Below, piece by piece: positions 1 to 55,203 of a stretch of 64,000 nucleotides of DNA. Position 1 is the first letter of the stretch, and each line of letters starts with the position of its first letter. The position numbers and the translations under genes were made by a program. Source of the DNA: a virus; the IMG/VR virus record IMGVR_UViG_3300026256_000121, positions 1 through 64,000 of that record. One strand, given 5' to 3'. Below the pieces are notes generated by a model, which was given only the letters and a program-made list of their open reading frames with translations, was not told where the DNA came from and ran no database searches.

Positions 1-528
1 TTAATGGATTGTGAGCATTGGGATAAGTGCGTTGCTATTGTAGAGAAGATGAAAACTAGTAAACAACCTTGGATTATCGAAGCTAAAAGCATTGTTCAAT
101 TCCCAGGTAAAGATATTAACTCTTATACTCAAGAACAAATAGACTATGTTGCAAATACTATTAAAAGAGTTCCAGACCCAAAGTACATATTAAAACATAT
201 TGATGATTTTAATGTATTTCAAAGTGTTGCTTTATTTAATGATGGTACTGCAACAACTATGAAGTCTGAAGATTATATTCATAACAAATGGAATTATTTT
301 AATGATTGGACTTGTCATGTACCTATAGAAAATTTAGTTATAGTATATGATGGTACTGTTACAGGATCATGTAATGCAAATATTTTTAAAGATGCAAAAA
401 TTAACATTTTTTCAGAAACATTTAAAGAAGAATTTGAAGAAAAATCATTTGATTTAAAACCAATTAAATGTCCATTTAAGGTTTGTAATTGTTTACCTGA
501 TACTCATATTACGAAGTATATTTCGTAA
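1..528 (+). CDS. Radical SAM/SPASM-like protein, C-terminal part (cut by window edge)
   Basis: The reading frame is open to the left edge, so only the C-terminal ~175 residues are present and the radical SAM core lies outside. It contains DWTCHV, a second cysteine in GSCNAN, and a terminal cysteine cluster (CPFKVCNC) ending in ITKYIS. The radical SAM protein at 509-1405 ends in the same layout (CTREWCTC then ITKYTS), so the two are paralogues. By family knowledge such C-terminal cysteines often bind an auxiliary iron-sulfur cluster; the substrate is unknown. It converges on 509-1405 and the last codons overlap. Confidence 0.6.
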   Translation, partial: LMDCEHWDKCVAIVEKMKTSKQPWIIEAKSIVQFPGKDINSYTQEQIDYVANTIKRVPDPKYILKHIDDFNVFQSVALFNDGTATTMKSEDYIHNKWNYFNDWTCHVPIENLVIVYDGTVTGSCNANIFKDAKINIFSETFKEEFEEKSFDLKPIKCPFKVCNCLPDTHITKYIS

Positions 529-529
529 T
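508..529. terminator. Bidirectional hairpin shared by two convergent gene ends
   Basis: ATTACGAA and TTCGTAAT form a perfect 8-bp stem around a 6-base loop (GTATAT). The hairpin contains the last codons and stop codons of both convergent radical SAM genes. It has no long T-tract, so factor-independent termination is only a possibility. Confidence 0.45.
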
Positions 530-1405
530 ATTAATATCTGCGGCGCAAGTACACCATTCCCTAGTACACGTAATAGATTCAGTAGGTTTTTTAAAACTAC
601 CTTTATAAATGTTACCCAAACTACCGCCTACTCTACAAGTAGCACGGTGTACATCACCATCCCAATTTATCATTAAACTTTCCAGACCTGCCTGGCAAGT
701 CCAGCCTTTAAATCCGTTTGTTTTATTGATAAGCAAGTCGTTTACATTACATTCAATAGTGTTATCAATCAATGTATTAGTTGGAGGATTGTGATTTTCG
801 GTCTTTAAAAAGTCCAATTCTTCCTTAGAATAGCGTTCCAAATCTTCAAAAATATCATGTGTTTCAGTCCAGCGTATAGGACGTAAAGCATAGGGTATTC
901 CTGCATTAGAAAGGCGTCTACAAGCGTCTATAACGTCGTTTAAGCGTTGGTTAATCATCATGACATGTACAAGTACCATCTTGTTTTTAGATGTATTATG
1001 TACGCTTATAATGGTCTCTAAAACACGCTCCCAATCGTACTCAAAATGCAAACTAAACACTATATGATCTAGATATTTTTGGAGCATATCAACATAAAAG
1101 TTTTTGGTTCTTGTACCATTTGTAGTTACATTAATCCAGCTAACTTTAGGACGAGCATAGTTTAATAAAGTAGTAATATCAGGATGAACAAATGGTTCTC
1201 CTCCTGTAAAACTAATTCTTACATTTTTGAGTTTAGATAATTCGTCTACAGTATTTTTAAGAATTTGAATATCAGTATGTTCGCTAACCATGTCATGAAT
1301 TTCTGCTGGGCAATACGAACAGTCATAATTGCATCGTTTGCCTAGGTTCCATTCAACCTTAATACTTTCTGCATAATGGGGATATTTGTTTTCTACCTTA
1401 AACAT
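509..1405 (-). CDS. Radical SAM protein with C-terminal cysteine cluster
   Basis: The cluster motif CNYDCSYC (C25, C29, C32) is the CxxxCxxC signature that holds the SAM-cleaving [4Fe-4S] cluster, and TGGEP follows near residue 68. Additional cysteines sit around residues 237-257 and at C280, C285 and C287, in a SPASM/twitch-like position that may bind an auxiliary cluster. It is the last gene of a minus-strand operon and overlaps the gene before it by 13 bases. Its C-terminus matches the convergent protein at 1-528. Substrate unknown; peptide or sugar modification would be guesses. Confidence 0.8.
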   Translation of the reverse strand: MFKVENKYPHYAESIKVEWNLGKRCNYDCSYCPAEIHDMVSEHTDIQILKNTVDELSKLKNVRISFTGGEPFVHPDITTLLNYARPKVSWINVTTNGTRTKNFYVDMLQKYLDHIVFSLHFEYDWERVLETIISVHNTSKNKMVLVHVMMINQRLNDVIDACRRLSNAGIPYALRPIRWTETHDIFEDLERYSKEELDFLKTENHNPPTNTLIDNTIECNVNDLLINKTNGFKGWTCQAGLESLMINWDGDVHRATCRVGGSLGNIYKGSFKKPTESITCTREWCTCAADINITKYTS

Positions 1406-2220
1406 TGTATAGTTCCAATTTTATTATACACTGAAAGAGTTTCTATAATATCTTTATATGATTTATGATTTAATCCACTTTTAATAAGATTAATTTTAGC
1501 AACAGGAATCATCCCAAAGCTATTCTTTTTAAACGTATAACCTTTTTTGTTAAGCCATAGTTTGATTTGAAGCTTTCTTAAAGTATGCATAACCCAATTA
1601 ACACTTCTACCAAATTTTATCATAAAATCAGAACTATAATGTGTTTGTGGTACATCTGTAGTATATTGATCTTTGTCTTTAAAAATGTCTAACATATTTT
1701 TACCTACATGACAATAGTTAATATATACACAACCAAATTGCCATTTAAATGTAAAATCGTCATAGTTTGCTAACTCTAATTTTTGTCTAGGCCTATCTTT
1801 AAATGTTACAACAATGGTAGCCGCATTGCCTCTTTTTTGTGATTCATATTCGTGAATTAAGATATTAAATTGTTCAACAGCTACTTTTATTTCTTTAGGT
1901 GCATTGTTAAACCATTGTGTACCTTCAGTAATATCACCTCGTAAGTCTTCAAAGTACGTATGCAATAAATTTAAATCAGTGCAGTTAGTTACAAATATAT
2001 CTATTACTCTATCATATCTATTGATAATTTCAATTTGTTTATTAATTAATTTAATATAATATCTTTTATCCTGCCCTGGCCAATCAGTAAATCTTGTATT
2101 CTCATAAAGTTCGTTATGATTATATAATTCCTTATACCACTTTTTAGCAATATTAGTATCATATGTATCGAAGTATACCCATTTACTATCTTTATTATTT
2201 TTAAATAGTATTCTAAACAT
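1393..2220 (-). CDS. Conserved-looking protein of unknown function (275 aa)
   Basis: I do not recognise the family. The protein is soluble, rich in aromatic and basic residues, with a central stretch around TFKDRPRQKLELANYDDF followed by WQFGCVYINYCHVGK, which looks like a compact conserved core. It lies between two radical SAM genes and overlaps both (8 bases upstream, 13 downstream), so the three are probably translated together. A role as substrate-binding partner of the neighbouring radical SAM enzymes is possible but unproven. Confidence 0.6.
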   Translation of the reverse strand: MFRILFKNNKDSKWVYFDTYDTNIAKKWYKELYNHNELYENTRFTDWPGQDKRYYIKLINKQIEIINRYDRVIDIFVTNCTDLNLLHTYFEDLRGDITEGTQWFNNAPKEIKVAVEQFNILIHEYESQKRGNAATIVVTFKDRPRQKLELANYDDFTFKWQFGCVYINYCHVGKNMLDIFKDKDQYTTDVPQTHYSSDFMIKFGRSVNWVMHTLRKLQIKLWLNKKGYTFKKNSFGMIPVAKINLIKSGLNHKSYKDIIETLSVYNKIGTIQCLR

Positions 2221-3487
2221 AATTAGCGAACTCAGGATTGATTACATCAAATGGTCCTTGATTTCTTCTAGAGTCTAATGTTTTATTAAATGCAATACAG
2301 TCTTGCCAATATTCTGATAAATCTTTTGCTTCTAAAAAGTTTATATTGTCAGTAATTTGTTGTTGTGTAATCTTTTTCAATATAGGATGTTTTTTTACTA
2401 ACTTATAGCTATCTATCTTAGTATACATATCATTTAGTTGTCTAATTACATCATCTTTTAAAGGTTTAGGTAAAACTTGAGCACTTAATACTCTAGGGTA
2501 TTGTACTCTATGGCTATAAAACACTATCTCCAGATCATTTAAAAAGTATTCAATAACCTTTGGTAGTTGTAATATATTATTAGCTTGAACAGTAAATGCA
2601 CCAACAACTCTACTTACATTTGGAAATTGTTTAATTGCGTTAACGTTCTCGACAACTTCTTTAAAGTTACCGCCACTACGAATGTATTCATATATTTTCC
2701 ATAACCCGTCAATACTAACATTAACAGCTACACTTTTAAATTTAGGCCAATAGTCATAGATAGTGCGACCCCCTTTAATTCCTAATACAGTTCCGTTTGT
2801 AGCATACTTAATTTCAATATTATCGCCATACGGGGCTAACATATCTAAAATTTTATAATGCATTGGGTCCATTAACGGTTCACCACCAGCAAATTCTACT
2901 CGTCTAAAGTGCGGTAATAGTTTTTCAAAACTTTCCCACCAATTAGGACTATTATCAAACAAGCCTACATAAGGTGCTTTAGTTAATCCTAAGTTTTCTA
3001 CAGCCTTGACAAGGTAGTTGTTTTCAGCTTTATAATGATGTACAATAGAGTTCCAATCTTTCCATTGTGTACTATCTAACGGATTGCACATACGACATTT
3101 TAAATTACACAAATTATTAATTTTAATTTCCATTGTAGGTAATTCAAATGGCATTGTGTAATCGTCATTTAGTGTTTCTAATGCGTCTGGATATAAATTA
3201 ATTCTAGACTCTGGAATAACATCACTAATATGTCGTTGGCGTAAACTTTCTACACCCTGGTCTTCTAAATCAAAGCAAGGTTTACATACTTCAGGACGTT
3301 CGTTGTTTAATACTTGTTTACGAACTTTACGCATTGTATCATTGTTCCATGCTTCTTCTAAAGTTTCGTTTTGTATCCAACCAATAGGTTGACTACGACA
3401 GCAAATTTTAATTGCGCCGTCTTCTCGTGTTGCCAACCCCGTAAAAGGGTGCATACAATATGTACATGATTTTTTAGTTGAGGTCAT
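2213..3487 (-). CDS. Radical SAM protein with N-terminal SPASM/twitch-like domain
   Basis: The N-terminus has paired cysteines (C8/C11, C29/C30, C68/C71) resembling a SPASM-type auxiliary cluster domain placed ahead of the core. The radical SAM motif CNLKCRMC follows at C127, C131, C134, with AGGEP near residue 200. The order is reversed relative to classical SPASM enzymes such as PqqE, but I have seen this arrangement in marine phage radical SAM proteins. It overlaps the QueC-like gene by 14 bases. The reaction is unknown. Confidence 0.8.
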   Translation of the reverse strand: MTSTKKSCTYCMHPFTGLATREDGAIKICCRSQPIGWIQNETLEEAWNNDTMRKVRKQVLNNERPEVCKPCFDLEDQGVESLRQRHISDVIPESRINLYPDALETLNDDYTMPFELPTMEIKINNLCNLKCRMCNPLDSTQWKDWNSIVHHYKAENNYLVKAVENLGLTKAPYVGLFDNSPNWWESFEKLLPHFRRVEFAGGEPLMDPMHYKILDMLAPYGDNIEIKYATNGTVLGIKGGRTIYDYWPKFKSVAVNVSIDGLWKIYEYIRSGGNFKEVVENVNAIKQFPNVSRVVGAFTVQANNILQLPKVIEYFLNDLEIVFYSHRVQYPRVLSAQVLPKPLKDDVIRQLNDMYTKIDSYKLVKKHPILKKITQQQITDNINFLEAKDLSEYWQDCIAFNKTLDSRRNQGPFDVINPEFANYV

Positions 3488-4250
3488 TTTGTTTTATAGC
3501 CCAGTTGCGTTCTTTACACCAAAAACATTTTCCGCATTCTGGAACAGCTTGTCCTGGAACGTAAGTTTTATAATCTAGGTCACCAAAGACTTCAGGATAA
3601 TGTGTTTTATCACCTTCGCAACTACGAGTAAGTATTAATAGTCCTCTAATATTATGATCGTAATATTGTTTAATAATCCAGTCTTTACGTGTATAGATAA
3701 AAGGATGACAAACTGTTACACCCATGTGTTCTCTAACTAAAGGTGTTAAGTCTTCGGAAGGGTCAATATCTCTATCGTCTAGCTTACCTTTAAAGTCTTC
3801 AATAGGATTTTTGTTTACGCCGGCAAACCAAGCATCTAATCCGTATCTAAATGCAATATATTCTGCATGAGAACGTAGAATAATTTGATTACCACTTTTT
3901 AGTTTACCATATTCATCTATAATAGTAGGCCCTTTATCTCCCCATTCTAAATCAGGCGGAATAAAGTTTTGATGCATAGTAAATCTATGATCTGGAAATC
4001 TTACTTCTAACCAGTTATATACAGCTAATGCATTATATTTTTGCCAAGGTCTTGTTTTCCACATTCTAATATTAGTTAAAATATGTATATTAGTTGTATG
4101 GGGAACATTTGAACAAATTAAATAAGCCAATAATGCACTATCGGCTCCGCCACTTAAACTAATGCCAATATTTCTCCAGTTAGTTAATACAGGAAATTCT
4201 ACGTCATCATACTTAACAATATTTTCTGCATATTTTGTATCTTTTAGCAT
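3474..4250 (-). CDS. QueC-like PP-loop ATPase (candidate preQ0 synthase)
   Basis: SLSGGADSA near residue 31 is the PP-loop that binds ATP and releases pyrophosphate. Near the C-terminus, TRSCEGD and later CGKCFWCKER reproduce the zinc-site layout of QueC, which converts carboxy-deazaguanine to preQ0 with ammonia; here an insertion of about 25 residues separates the first cysteine from the others. The frame extends to a TTG at 4286, but the ATG at 4250 is preferred because the longer start would read through a perfect palindrome. FolE, QueE, QueD-like and DpdA-like genes elsewhere in the window support the call. Alternative: a PP-loop enzyme serving the adjacent radical SAM operon. Confidence 0.65.
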   Translation of the reverse strand: MLKDTKYAENIVKYDDVEFPVLTNWRNIGISLSGGADSALLAYLICSNVPHTTNIHILTNIRMWKTRPWQKYNALAVYNWLEVRFPDHRFTMHQNFIPPDLEWGDKGPTIIDEYGKLKSGNQIILRSHAEYIAFRYGLDAWFAGVNKNPIEDFKGKLDDRDIDPSEDLTPLVREHMGVTVCHPFIYTRKDWIIKQYYDHNIRGLLILTRSCEGDKTHYPEVFGDLDYKTYVPGQAVPECGKCFWCKERNWAIKQNDLN

Positions 4251-4267
4251 AACAGTATTTACCGCAT

Positions 4268-4283
4268 TTAACTGGCCAGTTAA
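4268..4283. promoter_or_regulatory. Perfect 16-bp palindrome between divergent operons
   Basis: TTAACTGGCCAGTTAA is its own reverse complement. It lies in the 54-base gap between the ATG of the QueC-like gene (4250) and the start of the plus-strand operon (4305), where a dimeric regulator could control both. No regulator gene was recognised in the window. Confidence 0.5.
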
Positions 4284-4304
4284 CAATTTACGGTAAGTAT
4301 ATAT

Positions 4305-8342: not shown

Positions 8343-9042
8343 ATATAATTATTATTATAATAACGTCCCTGGAAAAGGATTATGTAGAAATAATTTAGTC
8401 TATACAAGCCTTATGAATGAGGATCAAACTGAGTTTATACAATGGTATTATAATGATACTGAATATCATAAAGGACATAATCAAGTAGTTGATCCTGTAT
8501 TAATGAATCAAAAATGGGAACGAGAACTTGTATTTTTACAGTTTATGGAAGTAGAAGCACCTAACTTAATTCCCAAAATTATTACTATTAATAATGAAGA
8601 ACGTAAAATTAAATTAGCAGTTGACGGCCCAGATTTTTGGGAACAATCAAGCTGTTCAGTAAATGGGTTTGATGAAACCTGTCCGGATTGGCAAGATCAA
8701 ATGTTAGATATTATTGCTAAACACGCCGAGCTTGGTCTTTATAAATTTAGTTTACACCCTAGTAGTTATTTTGTCGTAAATGGTATATTAAAAAGTATAA
8801 ATTATTTCTTTTGTTATTCAGAAGAAGAACCACAGATTGCTGTTAAAGATGTGTTAAGTCATATTAGCGAAGATAGGAAGCAAAAATTATTTCCTGCAAT
8901 GGCTAATTTGGGCATTAGCTTTGAACAGCCAGAGGAGTTTTTTAATTTGCAAATGTTATGTTTTGAAAGTTTTAGGGAAGATTATCCTAGAGAGTTTATA
9001 GAAGAAGCAAAGGAAATCTATGTGCGAGATAGCAGATTATGA
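8335..9042 (+). CDS. Kinase-fold-like protein (235 aa)
   Basis: The ATG at 8335 (MSKYNYYY), overlapping the previous stop, is preferred over an upstream ATG deep in the preceding gene. WERELVFLQFME then KIITINNEERKIKLAV resembles the N-lobe of small kinases, and LGLYKFSLHPSSYFVVNG resembles a degenerate catalytic loop. It shares this style with 4972-5550. Canonical catalytic residues are not clear, so it may be a pseudokinase or unrelated. Confidence 0.4.
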   Translation: MSKYNYYYNNVPGKGLCRNNLVYTSLMNEDQTEFIQWYYNDTEYHKGHNQVVDPVLMNQKWERELVFLQFMEVEAPNLIPKIITINNEERKIKLAVDGPDFWEQSSCSVNGFDETCPDWQDQMLDIIAKHAELGLYKFSLHPSSYFVVNGILKSINYFFCYSEEEPQIAVKDVLSHISEDRKQKLFPAMANLGISFEQPEEFFNLQMLCFESFREDYPREFIEEAKEIYVRDSRL

Positions 9043-9782
9043 GTTTTGAAACGAAGTTAAGAGTAATACATATATTAAATCATTTAGCAATTGTTCCCGC
9101 AATATATTATGGTGAATGGTGGATGTTTCTTGCGGCTCTAGGTTGGTGGAGCGTAATTGGTTGCGTTGGGATATCTGCAGGATTTCATAGATACTTGTCG
9201 CACAAGGCTTATAAAACACATCCTTGGTTTGAAAAGATAAGTTTATTTCTAGGATCTTTAGCGATGGGTGGATCACCATTAGCATGGGCAGGAGCTCATA
9301 GAATGCATCATGCATATACAGATAAAGAATTAGATCCTCACTCCCCAATACAAAAAGATTGGTGGAAAATATATATTCATTATTGGGGACGTATACAAGT
9401 AGATAAACGTTTTATTGCTGACTTACTAAAAAATAAAACAGTTATGTGGATTCATAGGCATTACTTTAGTATTATAACTTTCTGGGCATTAGGGTTAACA
9501 TTAATAGATCCTTTATTGCTTATCTTTGGATTTTGTATTCCTGCTGTATATGCCTTTCATGCATATGGTCAAATAAATGCTTGGTGTCATATGTTTGGAT
9601 ATCGTACATATAATACAAAAGATCATAGTTATAATAATTTTTTAGCAAATCTTATAACATGGGGTGAAGGGTGGCATAACAATCATCACAATAAACCAAC
9701 TAAATGGCAATTTGGCGAACGCTGGTGGGAGTTTGACCCAGCCGCAACTTTGATTAAGTTAGTAAAAAAGGATAAACTATGA
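9039..9782 (+). CDS. Delta-9-type fatty-acid desaturase
   Basis: Three histidine boxes are present in order: HRYLSH, HRMHH and HNNHH, which hold the di-iron centre of membrane acyl desaturases. Hydrophobic segments flank them (around residues 10-45 and 145-185). The length, 247 residues, is slightly short for the family. It would introduce a double bond into a membrane acyl chain, using electrons from a ferredoxin-type donor; a ferredoxin is encoded at 57656-57997. It overlaps both neighbouring genes by 4 bases. Confidence 0.9.
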   Translation: MSFETKLRVIHILNHLAIVPAIYYGEWWMFLAALGWWSVIGCVGISAGFHRYLSHKAYKTHPWFEKISLFLGSLAMGGSPLAWAGAHRMHHAYTDKELDPHSPIQKDWWKIYIHYWGRIQVDKRFIADLLKNKTVMWIHRHYFSIITFWALGLTLIDPLLLIFGFCIPAVYAFHAYGQINAWCHMFGYRTYNTKDHSYNNFLANLITWGEGWHNNHHNKPTKWQFGERWWEFDPAATLIKLVKKDKL

Positions 9783-10435
9783 CTTTAGCACCACTAACTG
9801 GGTCCTTCTTTATAATTCTAAGGGAAGGGTTCGAGGCGATGCTAATCGCTATGTTAATCTTTACCTATTTAAAGAAGTTCCACGCACAAGGTAAAGAGAA
9901 ATACGTATGGTACGGCATCATAAGTGGTATCGCACTATCAATAGTCATTGCAATGGGATTCAAATACATTGCTGGACTAACACACGAACACGAAGAATGG
10001 TTTGAAGGAGTCACAATGCTCACCGCGGCGGGTGTATTGGCATATCTGTCAATATGGTGCCACGGGGCCAAGAATCACTTTCAAGAGGATATACAGTCGA
10101 AACTCAAACCATTAGACAAAGAAATAACGCTTGGAGCAAGTTTGGCATTGTCTTTTGCCGTTTTTATTGCTATACTACGTGAAGGTTTTGAGATTGTATT
10201 ATTCTATGTGGCACTTATTTCATCTAGTGTAGACTCAGGCTTTGAGATACTTTTAGGTGGTGGACTTGGTGTTGCTGGTTTAATAGGTCTTTTTATTATA
10301 ATGCGAAAGAGTATGGATAAAGTTCCCACAGATACAATATTTCAATGCAGTAAATACCTGTTTATAATTGGGTCAATTTATTTTGCTTATTTAGGAGGCT
10401 CAGAAGTTTACGAACTATTAACTGAAACTCACTAA
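9779..10435 (+). CDS. FTR1-family iron permease
   Basis: Two REGFE motifs (ILREGFEAML near residue 14 and ILREGFEIVL near 129) are the hallmark iron-binding repeats of the FTR1/EfeU family. About six membrane segments can be read in 218 residues, slightly fewer than full-length members. The first ~350 bases look visibly richer in G and C than the neighbours, which suggests recent acquisition. Its oxygenase, desaturase and radical SAM neighbours all need iron, so iron supply to these enzymes is a reasonable inference. Confidence 0.85.
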   Translation: MTLAPLTGSFFIILREGFEAMLIAMLIFTYLKKFHAQGKEKYVWYGIISGIALSIVIAMGFKYIAGLTHEHEEWFEGVTMLTAAGVLAYLSIWCHGAKNHFQEDIQSKLKPLDKEITLGASLALSFAVFIAILREGFEIVLFYVALISSSVDSGFEILLGGGLGVAGLIGLFIIMRKSMDKVPTDTIFQCSKYLFIIGSIYFAYLGGSEVYELLTETH

Positions 10436-10804: not shown

Positions 10805-11887
10805 ATGAAAGATCGAGAAACATTAAGTTTATGTCATACGTGTTATAGACACATACCAGCTGACCGTGTTACTAAAGATAATGGAGTTTATCTTATTAAA
10901 ACGTGTCCCGAACATGGTCATATGGAAGAATGTATTGAAAAGGATGTTGAATTTTACAATAGTTTAATATATAATAGAGTTACTACTGGAAAGAATACTA
11001 TAGATGAAGATCATGATAGTAATTATGAAAATTGTATTTTATTTGAAGTAACTGATCGTTGTAATTTAGAATGTCCTCATTGTTATCTACAACCCGATAA
11101 TAAAATAATAGATAAATCTTTTGACCATATCTTTAAAATGATAACGGAGCAAACACGATCTACTATGGATACTGTATTCCTTTCAGGTGCTGAATGTACA
11201 GTACGTAAAGATTTACCTGAATTAATTAAAGCTATTACAGACAGAGGAAATGATGTTTGTATTATGACTAATGGTGTTAAACTTTCCAAAAGAAATTATG
11301 TTAAGTCACTTGTAGACGCTGGCCTTAAAATGGCTGTTCTAAGTTTAAACCATGAGTCTTATCAAGGTAAAGTAGTACATGGAAAGCAAGTAGCTGGTAT
11401 AGATATTTGTAATGAAGAAGGTATGTGTGTAGAGAAAATATTTTATACAGTAGAACATATAGACCAAGTAGACGATGTAATGGAAGAAATACAAGCTATG
11501 GGTCTAAAAAATCACCCAAGAACTGAATATAGAATTAGAGCTGGTTCAGATATAGGTAGAACTCCAGATGAACCTAGATTCTTTTTAAGTGATCACGTAA
11601 AACTTATAAAAAGTATTGCTGATAAAAAAGGATGGACTTGGGAGAAAATACCAGGAGACGATAATTTATATCATTATATGGTTAAGATTAACGGTCTTGT
11701 TCATAGAATTATTCAATGGTGTGATGCTAGAACTATTGATATGGAACAATTAAAATGTGGACCTTATGCTTATTTTGTTCCGGGAAAACCTGTAAGTAAC
11801 TTTTTACATCAAATCATCTTACGTGATGCACATATTAATAATGGGTTACCATTATTAGATACTGTACCTGATCGTTATATAGCTTAA
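10805..11887 (+). CDS. Radical SAM protein of MJ0619/Tes type
   Basis: The N-terminal domain (LCHTCYRHIPA, then IKTCPEHGH) is characteristic of the radical SAM group that includes the archaeal pterin methylase MJ0619 and tetraether lipid synthase Tes. The core motif CNLECPHC follows near residue 87, with SGAECT in the place of GGEPT. At 360 residues it is shorter than archaeal members. Being downstream of a desaturase makes a lipid substrate thinkable, and the deazaguanine/pterin enzymes elsewhere make a pterin thinkable; neither is shown. It ends overlapping the convergent tail-fibre gene by 4 bases. Confidence 0.7.
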   Translation: MKDRETLSLCHTCYRHIPADRVTKDNGVYLIKTCPEHGHMEECIEKDVEFYNSLIYNRVTTGKNTIDEDHDSNYENCILFEVTDRCNLECPHCYLQPDNKIIDKSFDHIFKMITEQTRSTMDTVFLSGAECTVRKDLPELIKAITDRGNDVCIMTNGVKLSKRNYVKSLVDAGLKMAVLSLNHESYQGKVVHGKQVAGIDICNEEGMCVEKIFYTVEHIDQVDDVMEEIQAMGLKNHPRTEYRIRAGSDIGRTPDEPRFFLSDHVKLIKSIADKKGWTWEKIPGDDNLYHYMVKINGLVHRIIQWCDARTIDMEQLKCGPYAYFVPGKPVSNFLHQIILRDAHINNGLPLLDTVPDRYIA

Positions 11888-51989: not shown

Positions 51990-52358
51990 TTATTCTTTAG
52001 GTAATTGTTCGTCTTTTTCGTAGTAATCTTGATATTTTTTAATAATTTCGCGTTGTTTAATAATATATGCTCTAATTTGTGCGAAGTTTTTTGTAAGTGA
52101 TTCATACCCTTCATCAGTTAGACCGAAAACGACAGGATCATCTCCGCCTTTTTTAATCTTATCTAATACTTCCTCAGCATTATCAGAATTAACAATATAC
52201 CATTTTAGTTCTTCTACTTTAAGTGGTTCTGGAAGAGTTAACGCTAACGGTTCACGTTTAACTTCAGTTTTAAAAATATCTAATTTTTGTACACTACTAC
52301 AGCCGTTTAAAAATACAGCTACTAAAATAACGAGTAAAAAGTTTTTAATGTTTAACAT
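51990..52358 (-). CDS. Outer-membrane lipoprotein, o-spanin (Rz1-like) candidate
   Basis: The signal sequence ends in the lipobox LNGC (FLLVILVAVFLNGCSS), so residue ~20 should be acylated. The mature part is Pro-containing, then helical (GLTDEGYESLTKNFAQIRAY). With the inner-membrane coiled-coil protein upstream it forms a plausible two-component spanin. I recall similar proteins in T4-like cyanophages. Confidence 0.65.
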   Translation of the reverse strand: MLNIKNFLLVILVAVFLNGCSSVQKLDIFKTEVKREPLALTLPEPLKVEELKWYIVNSDNAEEVLDKIKKGGDDPVVFGLTDEGYESLTKNFAQIRAYIIKQREIIKKYQDYYEKDEQLPKE

Positions 52359-52367
52359 AATTTTTTC

Positions 52368-52862
52368 CTATTGATATGGCACATAATTTGGATTCGCTAT
52401 AGATGGACAATCCGGATTAATTTGTGACTTTTTAGTTGCCGCAATTTCCTTCTCTGTTAGCGGAGATCCAGTAGCAATTTCAATGCATCTGTTAGCATTA
52501 GTATTAAGTTTGTTTATAGTTTTATCTACTAATTTAGGCTTTTGTTCTGCAAGGTTACCAAGATCACGTTTTTTACCTGATGCATTTAATTTATTAAATC
52601 TATCATTTAATGCTAATTTTTCTTTAGTAAGTTGTTGATTAGTGTGTTCTAGTTCTGCCTTAATTTTATTAATAGCTTCCCAATCAGCTTTCATTTGGGC
52701 AATTACGGCTTTTTGTGAATCAACACTTTCTATTAGTTTTGAATTATTTGCTTCACTTACTTCTAAGTCAGCTTTAAGTGTTTTTACATACATAAATCCA
52801 CCTCCAGCACCAGCTAAAAGCATTAATACTAATACTACTTTAATACCGCTAATTATTCCCAT
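52368..52862 (-). CDS. Inner-membrane i-spanin (Rz-like) candidate
   Basis: One membrane segment (IKVVLVLMLLAGAGGGFMYV) is followed by a long periplasmic coiled coil (residues ~28-100). The C-terminus contains two cysteines (NRCIEIATG and NPDCPS). The topology and length fit Rz-type i-spanins, and it is 9 bases upstream of the o-spanin candidate. It would fuse inner and outer membranes at lysis. Confidence 0.65.
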   Translation of the reverse strand: MGIISGIKVVLVLMLLAGAGGGFMYVKTLKADLEVSEANNSKLIESVDSQKAVIAQMKADWEAINKIKAELEHTNQQLTKEKLALNDRFNKLNASGKKRDLGNLAEQKPKLVDKTINKLNTNANRCIEIATGSPLTEKEIAATKKSQINPDCPSIANPNYVPYQ

Positions 52863-53091
52863 TTACCTTCTCCACAAGATCATAAAGATCCTGGACTGTA
52901 TTAACATCGCCTACAATATTTTCATCTATCTTAATTGAAAGTTTTTCTTCAATAGCTGTAATAAGTTCAATATAGTCAAAGTCATCACCGTCTAAATCAT
53001 CAATGATATGACTAGTAGCTTCTATGTTTTTATCAGCCCCATATTGTGCATGAAGTACTTCTAAAATTGCTTTTTGGTTATCTATGTTCAC
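52849..53091 (-). CDS. Acyl-carrier-protein-like protein lacking the attachment serine (80 aa)
   Basis: The GTG at 53091 overlaps the upstream stop (GTGA) with CGGAGAAG before it, giving an 80-residue protein of exact ACP size; a longer frame to 53142 is less likely. IIDDLDGDDFDYIELITAIE aligns with the ACP core, but the phosphopantetheine-bearing Ser of DSL is Asp (DDF), confirmed by codon GAC. The usual carrier function would be lost. It sits in the lysis module beside endolysin. Confidence 0.7.
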   Translation of the reverse strand: MNIDNQKAILEVLHAQYGADKNIEATSHIIDDLDGDDFDYIELITAIEEKLSIKIDENIVGDVNTVQDLYDLVEKVNGNN

Positions 53092-53252
53092 TGGCTTCTC
53101 CGATTGTTGTTTGTAATAAGACTGCATTTTGTACAAATACATGTTTTACAAATTTCTATTTCTACAGGAAGATTATCTCCGTCCTGCATTGTTTTTCTTA
53201 ATGGCGTCCCGCAATGGCTATCATGTCCACAATTTTTACAACCTACTGTCAT
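53088..53252 (-). CDS. Small zinc-finger-like protein (54 aa)
   Basis: The ATG at 53252 overlaps the endolysin stop. Two cysteine groups are present: CKNCGHDSHC near the N-terminus and CKTCICTKC near residues 35-43, a likely two-site or single treble-clef zinc fold. Its stop overlaps the ACP-like GTG start, so translation is coupled. Function unknown. Confidence 0.6.
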   Translation of the reverse strand: MTVGCKNCGHDSHCGTPLRKTMQDGDNLPVEIEICKTCICTKCSLITNNNRRSQ

Positions 53253-53758
53253 ATTAGTTTATTAGCAGATTGTGTTGTTTCAGTAACCCTACGAGTCCAT
53301 CCTCTCCCAAATGTTGCAAATGTTGTTAGTTTTTCATAGTATCCTTGTCTTGCTTCTTGATAGTTATGAATTGTTTTTTCTAATCCAACTTCTTCAACAT
53401 AATTCGCTACAGCTTTTAACGTATTTGGCCCAATGCCTCCGTCAGCAGTTGTACCTATCATTGTTTGTAAATACTTTGCCGCTCTACCAGGCCCAGCATT
53501 AACGCCAAAGTCAAATACACATAAATCTAAGCCATTTGGTAAATCATCACATTTAAGTCTACCCCAATAATTCTTTTCATATATTGGTGCAACATCTTCA
53601 ACTGTTAGGTCTTTCATATCCTTTGTACCACCCCATTCTTCGTATACTCTTTTCGTTACACCAAGATTAGTTTCGCCACCGGGGTCTTTAGGATGATTCA
53701 CATATCCGCCTTCATGATGTAAAATCACCTCTAGTGCATGTTTATAATTTGTTTGCAT
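53249..53758 (-). CDS. Endolysin, GH108-type muramidase
   Basis: ILHHEGGYVNHPKDPGGETN is the signature of GH108 lysozymes (zliS family); the Glu is catalytic. DFGVNAGPGRAAKYLQTMIG fits the peptidoglycan-binding DUF3380-type C-terminal part. The length of 169 is typical. AAGGAT precedes the ATG. It degrades host peptidoglycan. Confidence 0.93.
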   Translation of the reverse strand: MQTNYKHALEVILHHEGGYVNHPKDPGGETNLGVTKRVYEEWGGTKDMKDLTVEDVAPIYEKNYWGRLKCDDLPNGLDLCVFDFGVNAGPGRAAKYLQTMIGTTADGGIGPNTLKAVANYVEEVGLEKTIHNYQEARQGYYEKLTTFATFGRGWTRRVTETTQSANKLI

Positions 53759-53770
53759 GTTTAATCCTTG

Positions 53771-54481
53771 TTACTTTGTTAATACTAATGTATATCCTGT
53801 ATTCTCAATGAGGTATTTCTCACCGTATTTGGCAATATCATAATCGCCCAAATATTTAGTAAGGAATATAATTTCTGCAAAAGAATTGGCATCAAAAGAC
53901 TCTGTCATATTAGTCTGGATGTCTTTAGATTTACCAAATTCTTTAATTTTAAATTTTAATGGTTCAGCATATGATTTTCTAAATTTAATATTGTCTTGTA
54001 ATACTTCAACTGAATCCACATAACTGCGGTTAAAGAAATTTTTATAGTTATTTAAACTGTTCTCGTTTACATTAATTTCATATGCCATTGTATCTAAAGG
54101 AATAATTTCTGATAATGTTTCTGTGTCAGCATCTTGACTATCAAAACTCTTATAATATCTAAATCTAAGTTTATCAATATCAGCTAATTTTTTTACACCA
54201 TCAATTATTTCCATAATTTGTTCTGGAACATCTTTATTACGTTCAATCTCAACAAATACTTTATATGTACCGTCTGGTTGTTCTCCTGATGTTACATCAG
54301 AATCTAATACAAAATTATAACCTTTTTCTAAAAAGTTCATTAAGTCTATTGCTGGTTCTTGCGACTTGACTGAAAAACTTAAAGTTACAATATCTTTATC
54401 TTCACCCATTTTTGATTTAAATGAATCAATTTCAAAAATATCATAAACTAAATTTTTTAAATCGTGTGCTTGTAAACCCAT
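53771..54481 (-). CDS. Conserved phage protein of unknown function (236 aa)
   Basis: The start MGLQAHDLKNLVYDIFEIDS and the core VTLSFSVKSQEPAIDLMNFL, then FVLDSDVTSGEQPDG, look like a regular alpha/beta protein I recall in marine phages without a name. It shares one base with the gene upstream. A virion role is possible. Confidence 0.5.
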   Translation of the reverse strand: MGLQAHDLKNLVYDIFEIDSFKSKMGEDKDIVTLSFSVKSQEPAIDLMNFLEKGYNFVLDSDVTSGEQPDGTYKVFVEIERNKDVPEQIMEIIDGVKKLADIDKLRFRYYKSFDSQDADTETLSEIIPLDTMAYEINVNENSLNNYKNFFNRSYVDSVEVLQDNIKFRKSYAEPLKFKIKEFGKSKDIQTNMTESFDANSFAEIIFLTKYLGDYDIAKYGEKYLIENTGYTLVLTK

Positions 54482-55044
54482 TATACTTCACCCTCGACTG
54501 GTGCTGGTGCCGCCGCACCGGTTTCTTCTGCACCTGTTGGCGCCGCCGCTACTTCTTCACCCGGTTGTACTTCGCCATCAACGGCTGTCCCGGCATCCAC
54601 AGCTGGATCTGTAACAAAGTCTAATGCTTCTTTATAACCGCTATAGATGTTTATAATTAATTCTTTTGGCATTTGAATTTTAACTACCCAAACAGGATGT
54701 CTATCCAATTTACCTTTTTTAGTACCAGGACGTATATCACCTGGTTCTTGAATTTTACGAGGTTTAAGTATGCTAGTTTTTTCATAACTTACTTTACAGT
54801 CATAATCCATAAGTCTTTTACCACCCATTGGATCAGGCATTTTGTCTTTATCCCACATAAATTCGCAAACTACCCAATGTTTTTCAATATTAGGTCCTGA
54901 AGCTAATTCGCCATCTTCCCAGTTATCGTAAACATAGATATCTAATTCGTCAAGTACTCGTTCAAAGTCTTTAAGAACGCTAAAAGCGGTATCGCTTTCA
55001 TATATACTTTCTAGGTTTTTTACAATGTCCATCACGTCATGCAT
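54481..55044 (-). CDS. Protein of unknown function with acidic Ala/Pro-rich tail (187 aa)
   Basis: The ATG at 55044 with ACAGGAG upstream is preferred to the longer frame starting at 55086. The N-terminal 140 residues look folded (YVYDNWEDGELASGP, HWVVCEFMWDKDKMPDPMGG). The last ~50 residues are Ala/Glu/Pro/Gly-rich. A CTAAATA box lies upstream. Function unknown. Confidence 0.5.
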   Translation of the reverse strand: MHDVMDIVKNLESIYESDTAFSVLKDFERVLDELDIYVYDNWEDGELASGPNIEKHWVVCEFMWDKDKMPDPMGGKRLMDYDCKVSYEKTSILKPRKIQEPGDIRPGTKKGKLDRHPVWVVKIQMPKELIINIYSGYKEALDFVTDPAVDAGTAVDGEVQPGEEVAAAPTGAEETGAAAPAPVEGEV

Positions 55045-55203
55045 ATTAGAAGCTCCTGTACACTTATTTAGCTGAGTTGTGTCCATATAGTAGCAGTTTT
55101 GTTTCTCGATTCATGTGCTAAATATTTTAGTAAAGGTACAACTGAGTTGTGTCTAAGCTCAGAAGTGTGCTTTATGCGAATTCCACTCATAAAGGAGGAC
55201 TGC
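55045..55203. promoter_or_regulatory. Divergent control region between 54481-55044 and phoH
   Basis: CTAAATA boxes occur on both strands: minus near 55066-55072, plus near 55118-55124 within CTAAATATTTTAG. TGAGTTGTGTC is repeated in the same orientation (near 55072 and 55144), followed by CTGAG...CTCAG inverted halves. AAAGGAGG precedes phoH. No perfect sigma-70 pair was seen. Confidence 0.4.

Follow-up and report, generated by a model that had tools for sequence, protein, structure and literature searches.

The locus analysed here raises the question of what use a marine virus of bacteria could have for an acyl carrier protein (ACP) that has no phosphopantetheine serine and is encoded among lysis genes. 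The window, i.e. the whole 64,000-nucleotide stretch of DNA analysed, is part of a 74,451-base IMG/VR virus record with T4-like genes. Our best reading places the protein in a family of ACPs that is specific to phages, whose members stay permanently unmodified and act by binding other proteins.

The ACP-like gene is interlocked with the lysis genes

The gene lies at the coordinates given in an original prediction made from the sequence alone (52849-53091), and we found it on the minus strand. Read along that strand, two virion structural genes are followed by a glycoside hydrolase 108 (GH108) endolysin gene, a Cys-rich ORF, the ACP-like ORF, the i-spanin gene and the o-spanin gene:

54481..55086 (-), virion structural protein, upstream neighbour (phrog_12928, 8.1e-27)
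53771..54481 (-), virion structural protein, upstream neighbour, conserved in relatives (phrog_13138, 4.1e-30)
53249..53758 (-), endolysin, glycoside hydrolase 108 plus peptidoglycan-binding domain (PF05838, 3.9e-31; PF09374, 3e-7; phrog_315, 1.1e-53)
53088..53252 (-), small Cys-rich (Zn-ribbon-like) ORF, 54 aa
52849..53091 (-), serine-less ACP-like ORF, 80 aa, pI about 4.05, GTG start
52981..52983 (-), codon 37 (GAC, Asp) of the ACP-like ORF, the position of the phosphopantetheine Ser36 of E. coli ACP
52368..52862 (-), i-spanin, Rz-like (phrog_739, 1.7e-12)
51990..52358 (-), o-spanin-like lipoprotein, Rz1-like (phrog_812, 1e-12)

The Pfam and PHROG matches of the endolysin and of both spanins bear out the predicted location in the lysis region. 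The ACP-like reading frame runs from the GTG at 53091 to a TAG stop at 52851-52849, with a Shine-Dalgarno-like GGAG (53101-53098) six bases 5' of the start codon; the plus strand across 52849-53091 is interrupted by stops, and the open frame is that of the minus strand. On the upstream side, the TGA stop of the Cys-rich ORF shares bases with the ACP start codon in a GTGA overlap. On the downstream side, the i-spanin ATG lies 14 nt before the end of the ACP gene and its own GGAG (52873-52870) falls within the ACP ORF. The latter arrangement recurs in relatives: of 50 distinct junctions, 47 have an overlap of 1-26 nt between the ACP stop and the first start codon of the i-spanin gene, one has an overlap of 41 nt and two are exceptions.

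Across the lysis cassettes of relatives the endolysin type is variable, and the Cys-rich ORF and the ACP gene are both optional. The Cys-rich ORF itself has no significant Pfam or PHROG family. ORFs of this kind, of 38-65 aa and with a DGD[GN] stretch, occupy the slot between endolysin and i-spanin in many relatives, with or without an ACP gene.

A predicted four-helix ACP with aspartate at the serine site

The window protein matches the PP-binding family PF00550 over residues 9-73 with 26 bits (curated cut-off 20.8) and PHROG 5934, ‘acyl carrier protein’, with 1.1e-10, and when the profile of its family was compared with solved bacterial ACPs, the Aquifex ACP was the best match (8.8e-21). An AlphaFold2 model, built from an input alignment of 17 sequences from the window and IMG/VR (pLDDT 85, pTM 0.72), places helices at residues 3-17, 37-51, 57-60 and 66-78, which is the ACP helix order. 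When this model was compared with the PDB using Foldseek, the best 50 matches listed were all ACP chains, alone or in complexes, with TM-scores of 0.7-0.85 for most and a maximum of 0.85; given the small size of the protein the E-values are modest, and it is the TM-scores and the sequence profile that carry weight. The ACP helices of the model, the ACP-only fold matches among those listed and the profile match to the Aquifex protein exclude a chance resemblance. The window ORF is a genuine ACP homologue with a predicted four-helix ACP fold, which confirms the ACP size and pattern that had been proposed for it.

In comparison with AcpP (PF00550; E. coli, Aquifex 2ehs, Thermotoga 6lvu), the window protein is of similar length (80 vs 78 aa), has the same four-helix fold and D35/D38 loop, and is likewise acidic (pI about 4 for AcpP; 4.05 with a net charge of about -15 for the window protein). 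Unlike AcpP, it lacks the phosphopantetheine serine, and the marine group of relatives described below lacks the helix II centre (L42-V43-M44) and E47/E48. Where E. coli ACP has the motif DLGADSLD, the window protein has DLDGDDFD (longer alignment: E. coli DLGADSLDTVEL, window DLDGDDFDYIEL). The equivalent of Ser36 is Asp37, sitting between the invariant Asp36 and Asp39, and its GAC codon confirms the aspartate that had been noted at this site. A holo-ACP needs the serine of the DSL motif for its 4'-phosphopantetheine, and Asp37 stands in its place here. A reading of DLDGDDFD as an EF-hand was also considered and rejected, as the spacing of glycine and glutamate, judged by eye, is wrong.

The serine is absent from relatives in two genomic slots

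The original prediction had suggested an alignment of phage ACPs at this position, in which serine in all relatives would mark the aspartate as a sequencing error. We observed the opposite, i.e. no serine among the relatives listed, in either of two genomic slots. Scans based on the ACP itself are unable to test for serine, since the altered motif is part of their patterns, and scans based on neighbouring genes were used in their place. For the lysis slot, loci were retrieved via the i-spanin gene, and since the profile included serine-bearing phage ACPs, copies with serine in this slot would have shown. An ACP-like ORF was present in 72 of the 160 lysis loci listed from this retrieval. In a further, ACP-independent retrieval with the upstream structural gene (54481..55086) as bait, a profile partly seeded with E. 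coli ACP matched serine-less members only. As some contigs were common to both retrievals, near-identical contigs included, distinct proteins were counted. The lysis slot holds at least 30 of these, with Asp (17), Glu (12) or Pro (1) at the site and with Ser in none of the 30 listed.

The second slot lies in the neck region, between a virion structural gene (phrog_11591) and a tail-sheath-stabiliser-like gene (examples of serine-less copies are L231:2435-2671, L233:2477-2692 and L402-L421, also L241). The neighbour scan of this slot found an ACP in 16 of the 62 loci listed, corresponding to at least 11 distinct proteins. Their site residues are Glu, Val, Asp, Asn, Pro or Ile, and Ser occurs in none of the 11 listed. 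Over both slots, at least 41 distinct serine-less relatives were thus retrieved via neighbouring genes.

The surroundings of the site are conserved. In a broader set of 55 distinct sequences, the equivalents of L32, D35 and D38 (E. coli numbering) are invariant, position 37 is hydrophobic throughout and position 41 is Glu or Asp throughout. In the marine group, whose members are metagenomic contigs throughout, the M44 equivalent is V, I, M, D, L, C or T, and the equivalents of E47/E48 are variable. The closest pairs have dN/dS values of mostly about 0.02-0.3, i.e. they are under purifying selection. PF00550 matches exactly once in each of 14 large virus contigs that bear a serine-less copy, whereas in a related 357-kb record (G022) the ACP bears the serine (L299:1468-1728, minus strand). 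By eye, this ACP gene is flanked by ribonucleotide reductase- and glutaredoxin-like genes, i.e. genes of nucleotide metabolism.

With the window protein as query, tblastn gave no match in cultured phages at E-values up to 10; masking of the acidic motif by the low-complexity filter may be the cause, and less acidic relatives did give matches. As to a cellular source, a motif-biased scan of 84,980 bacterial and archaeal genomes led to one confirmed relative, in a Patescibacteria MAG. Three ACP-like ORFs lie in tandem there (L290:4989-5767), two without the serine (GGDDID, FNDMD) and one with DSLD.

The residue distribution also bears on the suggestion that the aspartate mimics the modified form of ACP through its negative charge. 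Asp and Glu dominate the lysis slot, as this idea would have it, but Pro occurs there too, and Val, Ile, Asn and Pro occur in the neck slot. In the AlphaFold2 model, helix II begins with residue 37. The first position of a helix favours Asp, Glu and Pro in any protein, for structural reasons. The non-acidic residues in close kin and this helix-start preference weaken the charge-mimic idea, and we dropped it as a general rule in view of the residues found in the second slot; within the lysis clade, a role of Asp as a phosphate mimic is possible. The rule common to both slots is the absence of serine, not the presence of an acidic residue.

Serine loss in other phage ACPs

The ACPs of cultured phages mostly have the DSL motif: among 18 aligned phage proteins only that of phiMAM1 is without it (a Bibwit protein was set aside from this alignment as it is not an ACP). 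Serine-bearing ACPs were found in P-HM1/2, MED4-213, phiCbK, pf16, eugene/helene (Vibrio), R6L (Erythrobacter), Bajun (Brevundimonas), HRDY3 and the L299 locus. They are phage-borne homologues like the window protein, but they keep the serine and, in the contexts read, never lie in the lysis slot. In the cyanophages P-HM1/2 the serine-bearing ACP is accompanied by its own ACP synthase (PMC3037559), whereas the 74-kb virus record of the window (G000), which is possibly partial, contains no match to the AcpS-type transferase family (PF01648). In Pseudomonas phage HRDY3 (L209 789-1758), the gene for a free ACP with DSLD lies beside that of a 236-aa protein with a C-terminal fused ACP domain (MDSLDHIEM).

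A different picture emerged for the Ackermannviridae, in which 269 records carry an ‘acyl carrier protein’. All nine members that we read across the identity range have Asp or Glu at the serine site, and phiMAM1 has Glu; the site motifs are GGDDLD, GGDELD, CDDLD and FDELD (L291-L298, L281, L199; e.g. Vi01_122c). These proteins (phrog_4154; Salmonella Vi01 Vi01_122c, PhiSH19, LIMEstone1, Ag3, Klebsiella May and Magnus) and gp092 of Serratia phiMAM1 resemble the window protein in their Asp or Glu. They differ from it in being longer (mostly 104-115 aa; 90 aa in phiMAM1), in lying outside the lysis region, adjacent to a vWFA gene (phiMAM1 excepted), and in having a helix II centre as in E. coli ACP. 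Judging from these motifs, the label ‘acyl carrier protein’ is probably misleading across about 269 Ackermannviridae phage records.

In a 64-row tree, the marine lysis and neck proteins form one supported clade (98/91) and the Ackermannviridae proteins fall in another, with many Asp-Glu exchanges within the lysis slot. The tree, which is weak and rests on few columns, requires about five changes between serine and non-serine, but the AU test does not reject a single clade of serine-less phage ACPs (p-AU 0.056). Independent losses of the serine among phage ACPs are therefore likely at most, and the loss in Ackermannviridae was probably separate from that in the marine group.

A probable protein ligand in place of a carrier

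The claim that the protein cannot carry acyl groups in the usual way is backed by the conserved loss of the serine and by the finding that S36T alone abolishes the function of E. coli ACP (PMC3340395); as the virus record is also without an AcpS match, a normal carrier role appears impossible. Besides the fold, the protein seems to have kept the acidic loop for docking where helix II begins, while without the serine it could not carry acyl groups and would be unmodified in the cell. Retention of the docking loop without the serine points to protein binding, and D35 and D38 of E. coli ACP are needed for binding IscS (PMC13343975). An ACP-like protein has thus probably been repurposed for binding other proteins instead of for fatty-acid carriage.

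As to what it binds, our leading proposal, to which we would give somewhat less than an even chance, is that this obligate-apo ACP acts late as a decoy on host ACP-dependent enzymes. This agrees with the suggestion in the original prediction that the protein imitates ACP to bind and block host lipid-synthesis enzymes, which is plausible. Translation of the gene would be linked to that of its neighbours in the lysis cassette, the Zn-ribbon gene on the upstream side and the i-spanin gene on the downstream side, and expression would fall late in infection. By occupying the site at which one or more host ACP-dependent enzymes bind ACP (acyltransferases that make phospholipid or lipid A are the most plausible targets), the decoy would slow envelope lipid synthesis during disruption of the envelope by the phage. 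We favour a decoy produced along with the lysis proteins because harm by unmodified ACP has precedents: apo-ACP inhibits glycerol-3-phosphate acyltransferase, more strongly than holo-ACP does (PMC3896788), and replacement of the active-site residue is toxic via accumulation of apo-ACP (PMC10607373). Against a decoy, SpoT and IscS do not bind serine-less or apo ACP (PMC3896788, PMC13343975). Furthermore, E. coli ACP loses several of its partnerships on mutation of M44, V43 or L42 (PMC3340395), and the middle of helix II is not conserved in the marine group. The gene is also an accessory one, missing from about half of otherwise similar lysis cassettes. More tentatively, we suggest that phages may repeatedly have converted ACP to an obligate-apo protein ligand, used as a decoy or adaptor on host ACP-dependent membrane lipid synthesis at lysis.

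The main rival, which we consider unlikely but take seriously, is that the protein is a structural or assembly adaptor, i.e. a small acidic docking subunit for phage virion or lysis proteins. Such a role requires neither an acyl group nor a host target, respiratory complex I and other large complexes contain ACP as a subunit without enzymatic function, and ACP chains within large complexes are among the PDB fold matches listed. The window gene adjoins both virion structural and lysis genes, the copies in L231, L233 and L241 lie between virion structural and tail-sheath-stabiliser-like genes, and the Ackermannviridae copy lies beside a vWFA protein, a ‘confirmed structural protein’ according to the LIMEstone1 record. 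An Ackermannviridae homologue was also detected in CsCl-purified Sajous1 virions, by a single spectrum that, according to its authors, may be contamination (PMC10892097). However, the gene is missing from about half of otherwise similar lysis cassettes, which marks it as an accessory gene, and from most relatives of the neck-slot gene; an accessory function fits this better than an assembly role does, and the accompanying endolysins are very different.

Hijacking of a host protein that is regulated by ACP without phosphopantetheine, like E. coli MukB, would direct the protein at, for example, chromosome handling and not at lipid synthesis, and we regard it as improbable. MukBEF is restricted to some gammaproteobacteria, and the gene context gives no pointer in this direction. 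On the other hand, apo- and holo-AcpP have the same stimulating effect on the MukB ATPase (PMC8602292), which indicates that serine-independent partners of ACP exist, and MukBEF-bound ACP (9gm6) is among the fold matches listed.

Regulation of lysis, with the protein binding the co-translated endolysin or i-spanin and delaying or localising it, is a longer shot. It would account for the conserved position and the translational overlap between the endolysin/Zn-ribbon and i-spanin genes, but the same protein family sits between neck and tail genes in relatives, unrelated endolysin types lie alongside it (GH108 here; phrog_181 in L002), and many cassettes with the same spanins have no ACP gene. 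Decay to a non-functional ACP or a sequencing error, to which the missing key residue might point, is hardly credible and is refuted by conservation: no serine in the 41 distinct neighbour-retrieved relatives listed, purifying selection in close pairs, an invariant flanking motif, and an open frame maintained along with its overlaps with both neighbours.

ACP is among the most connected of bacterial proteins. If an obligate-apo ACP does act as a decoy on host enzymes, phages could switch host membrane synthesis by protein contacts alone. Phage ‘acyl carrier protein’ genes that are counted as auxiliary fatty-acid metabolism may also not encode carriers; phrog_5934 and phrog_4154 are both filed under the auxiliary-metabolism category. 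A literature search of partial coverage found no description of serine-less phage ACPs, and such obligate-apo proteins would have been overlooked because annotation pipelines label them ‘acyl carrier protein’. The occurrence of serine loss both in marine T4-like viruses, in two slots, and in Ackermannviridae that can be grown in the laboratory (Vi01, LIMEstone kin) makes these ideas directly testable.

The window also encodes a fatty-acid desaturase-like protein (9039-9782), and a functional link between it and the ACP was rejected, as the two genes do not co-occur: the desaturase is found in none of 13 other records with a serine-less ACP, and several records without such an ACP have it. The desaturase-like ORF (PF00487) is followed by an FTR1 iron permease-like ORF, judged by eye (both within 9039-10435, plus strand). 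Radical-SAM or ATP-pyrophosphatase-like ORFs, again by eye, lie at 509-4286 (minus strand) and 10805-11887 (plus strand), in an apparent metabolic island.
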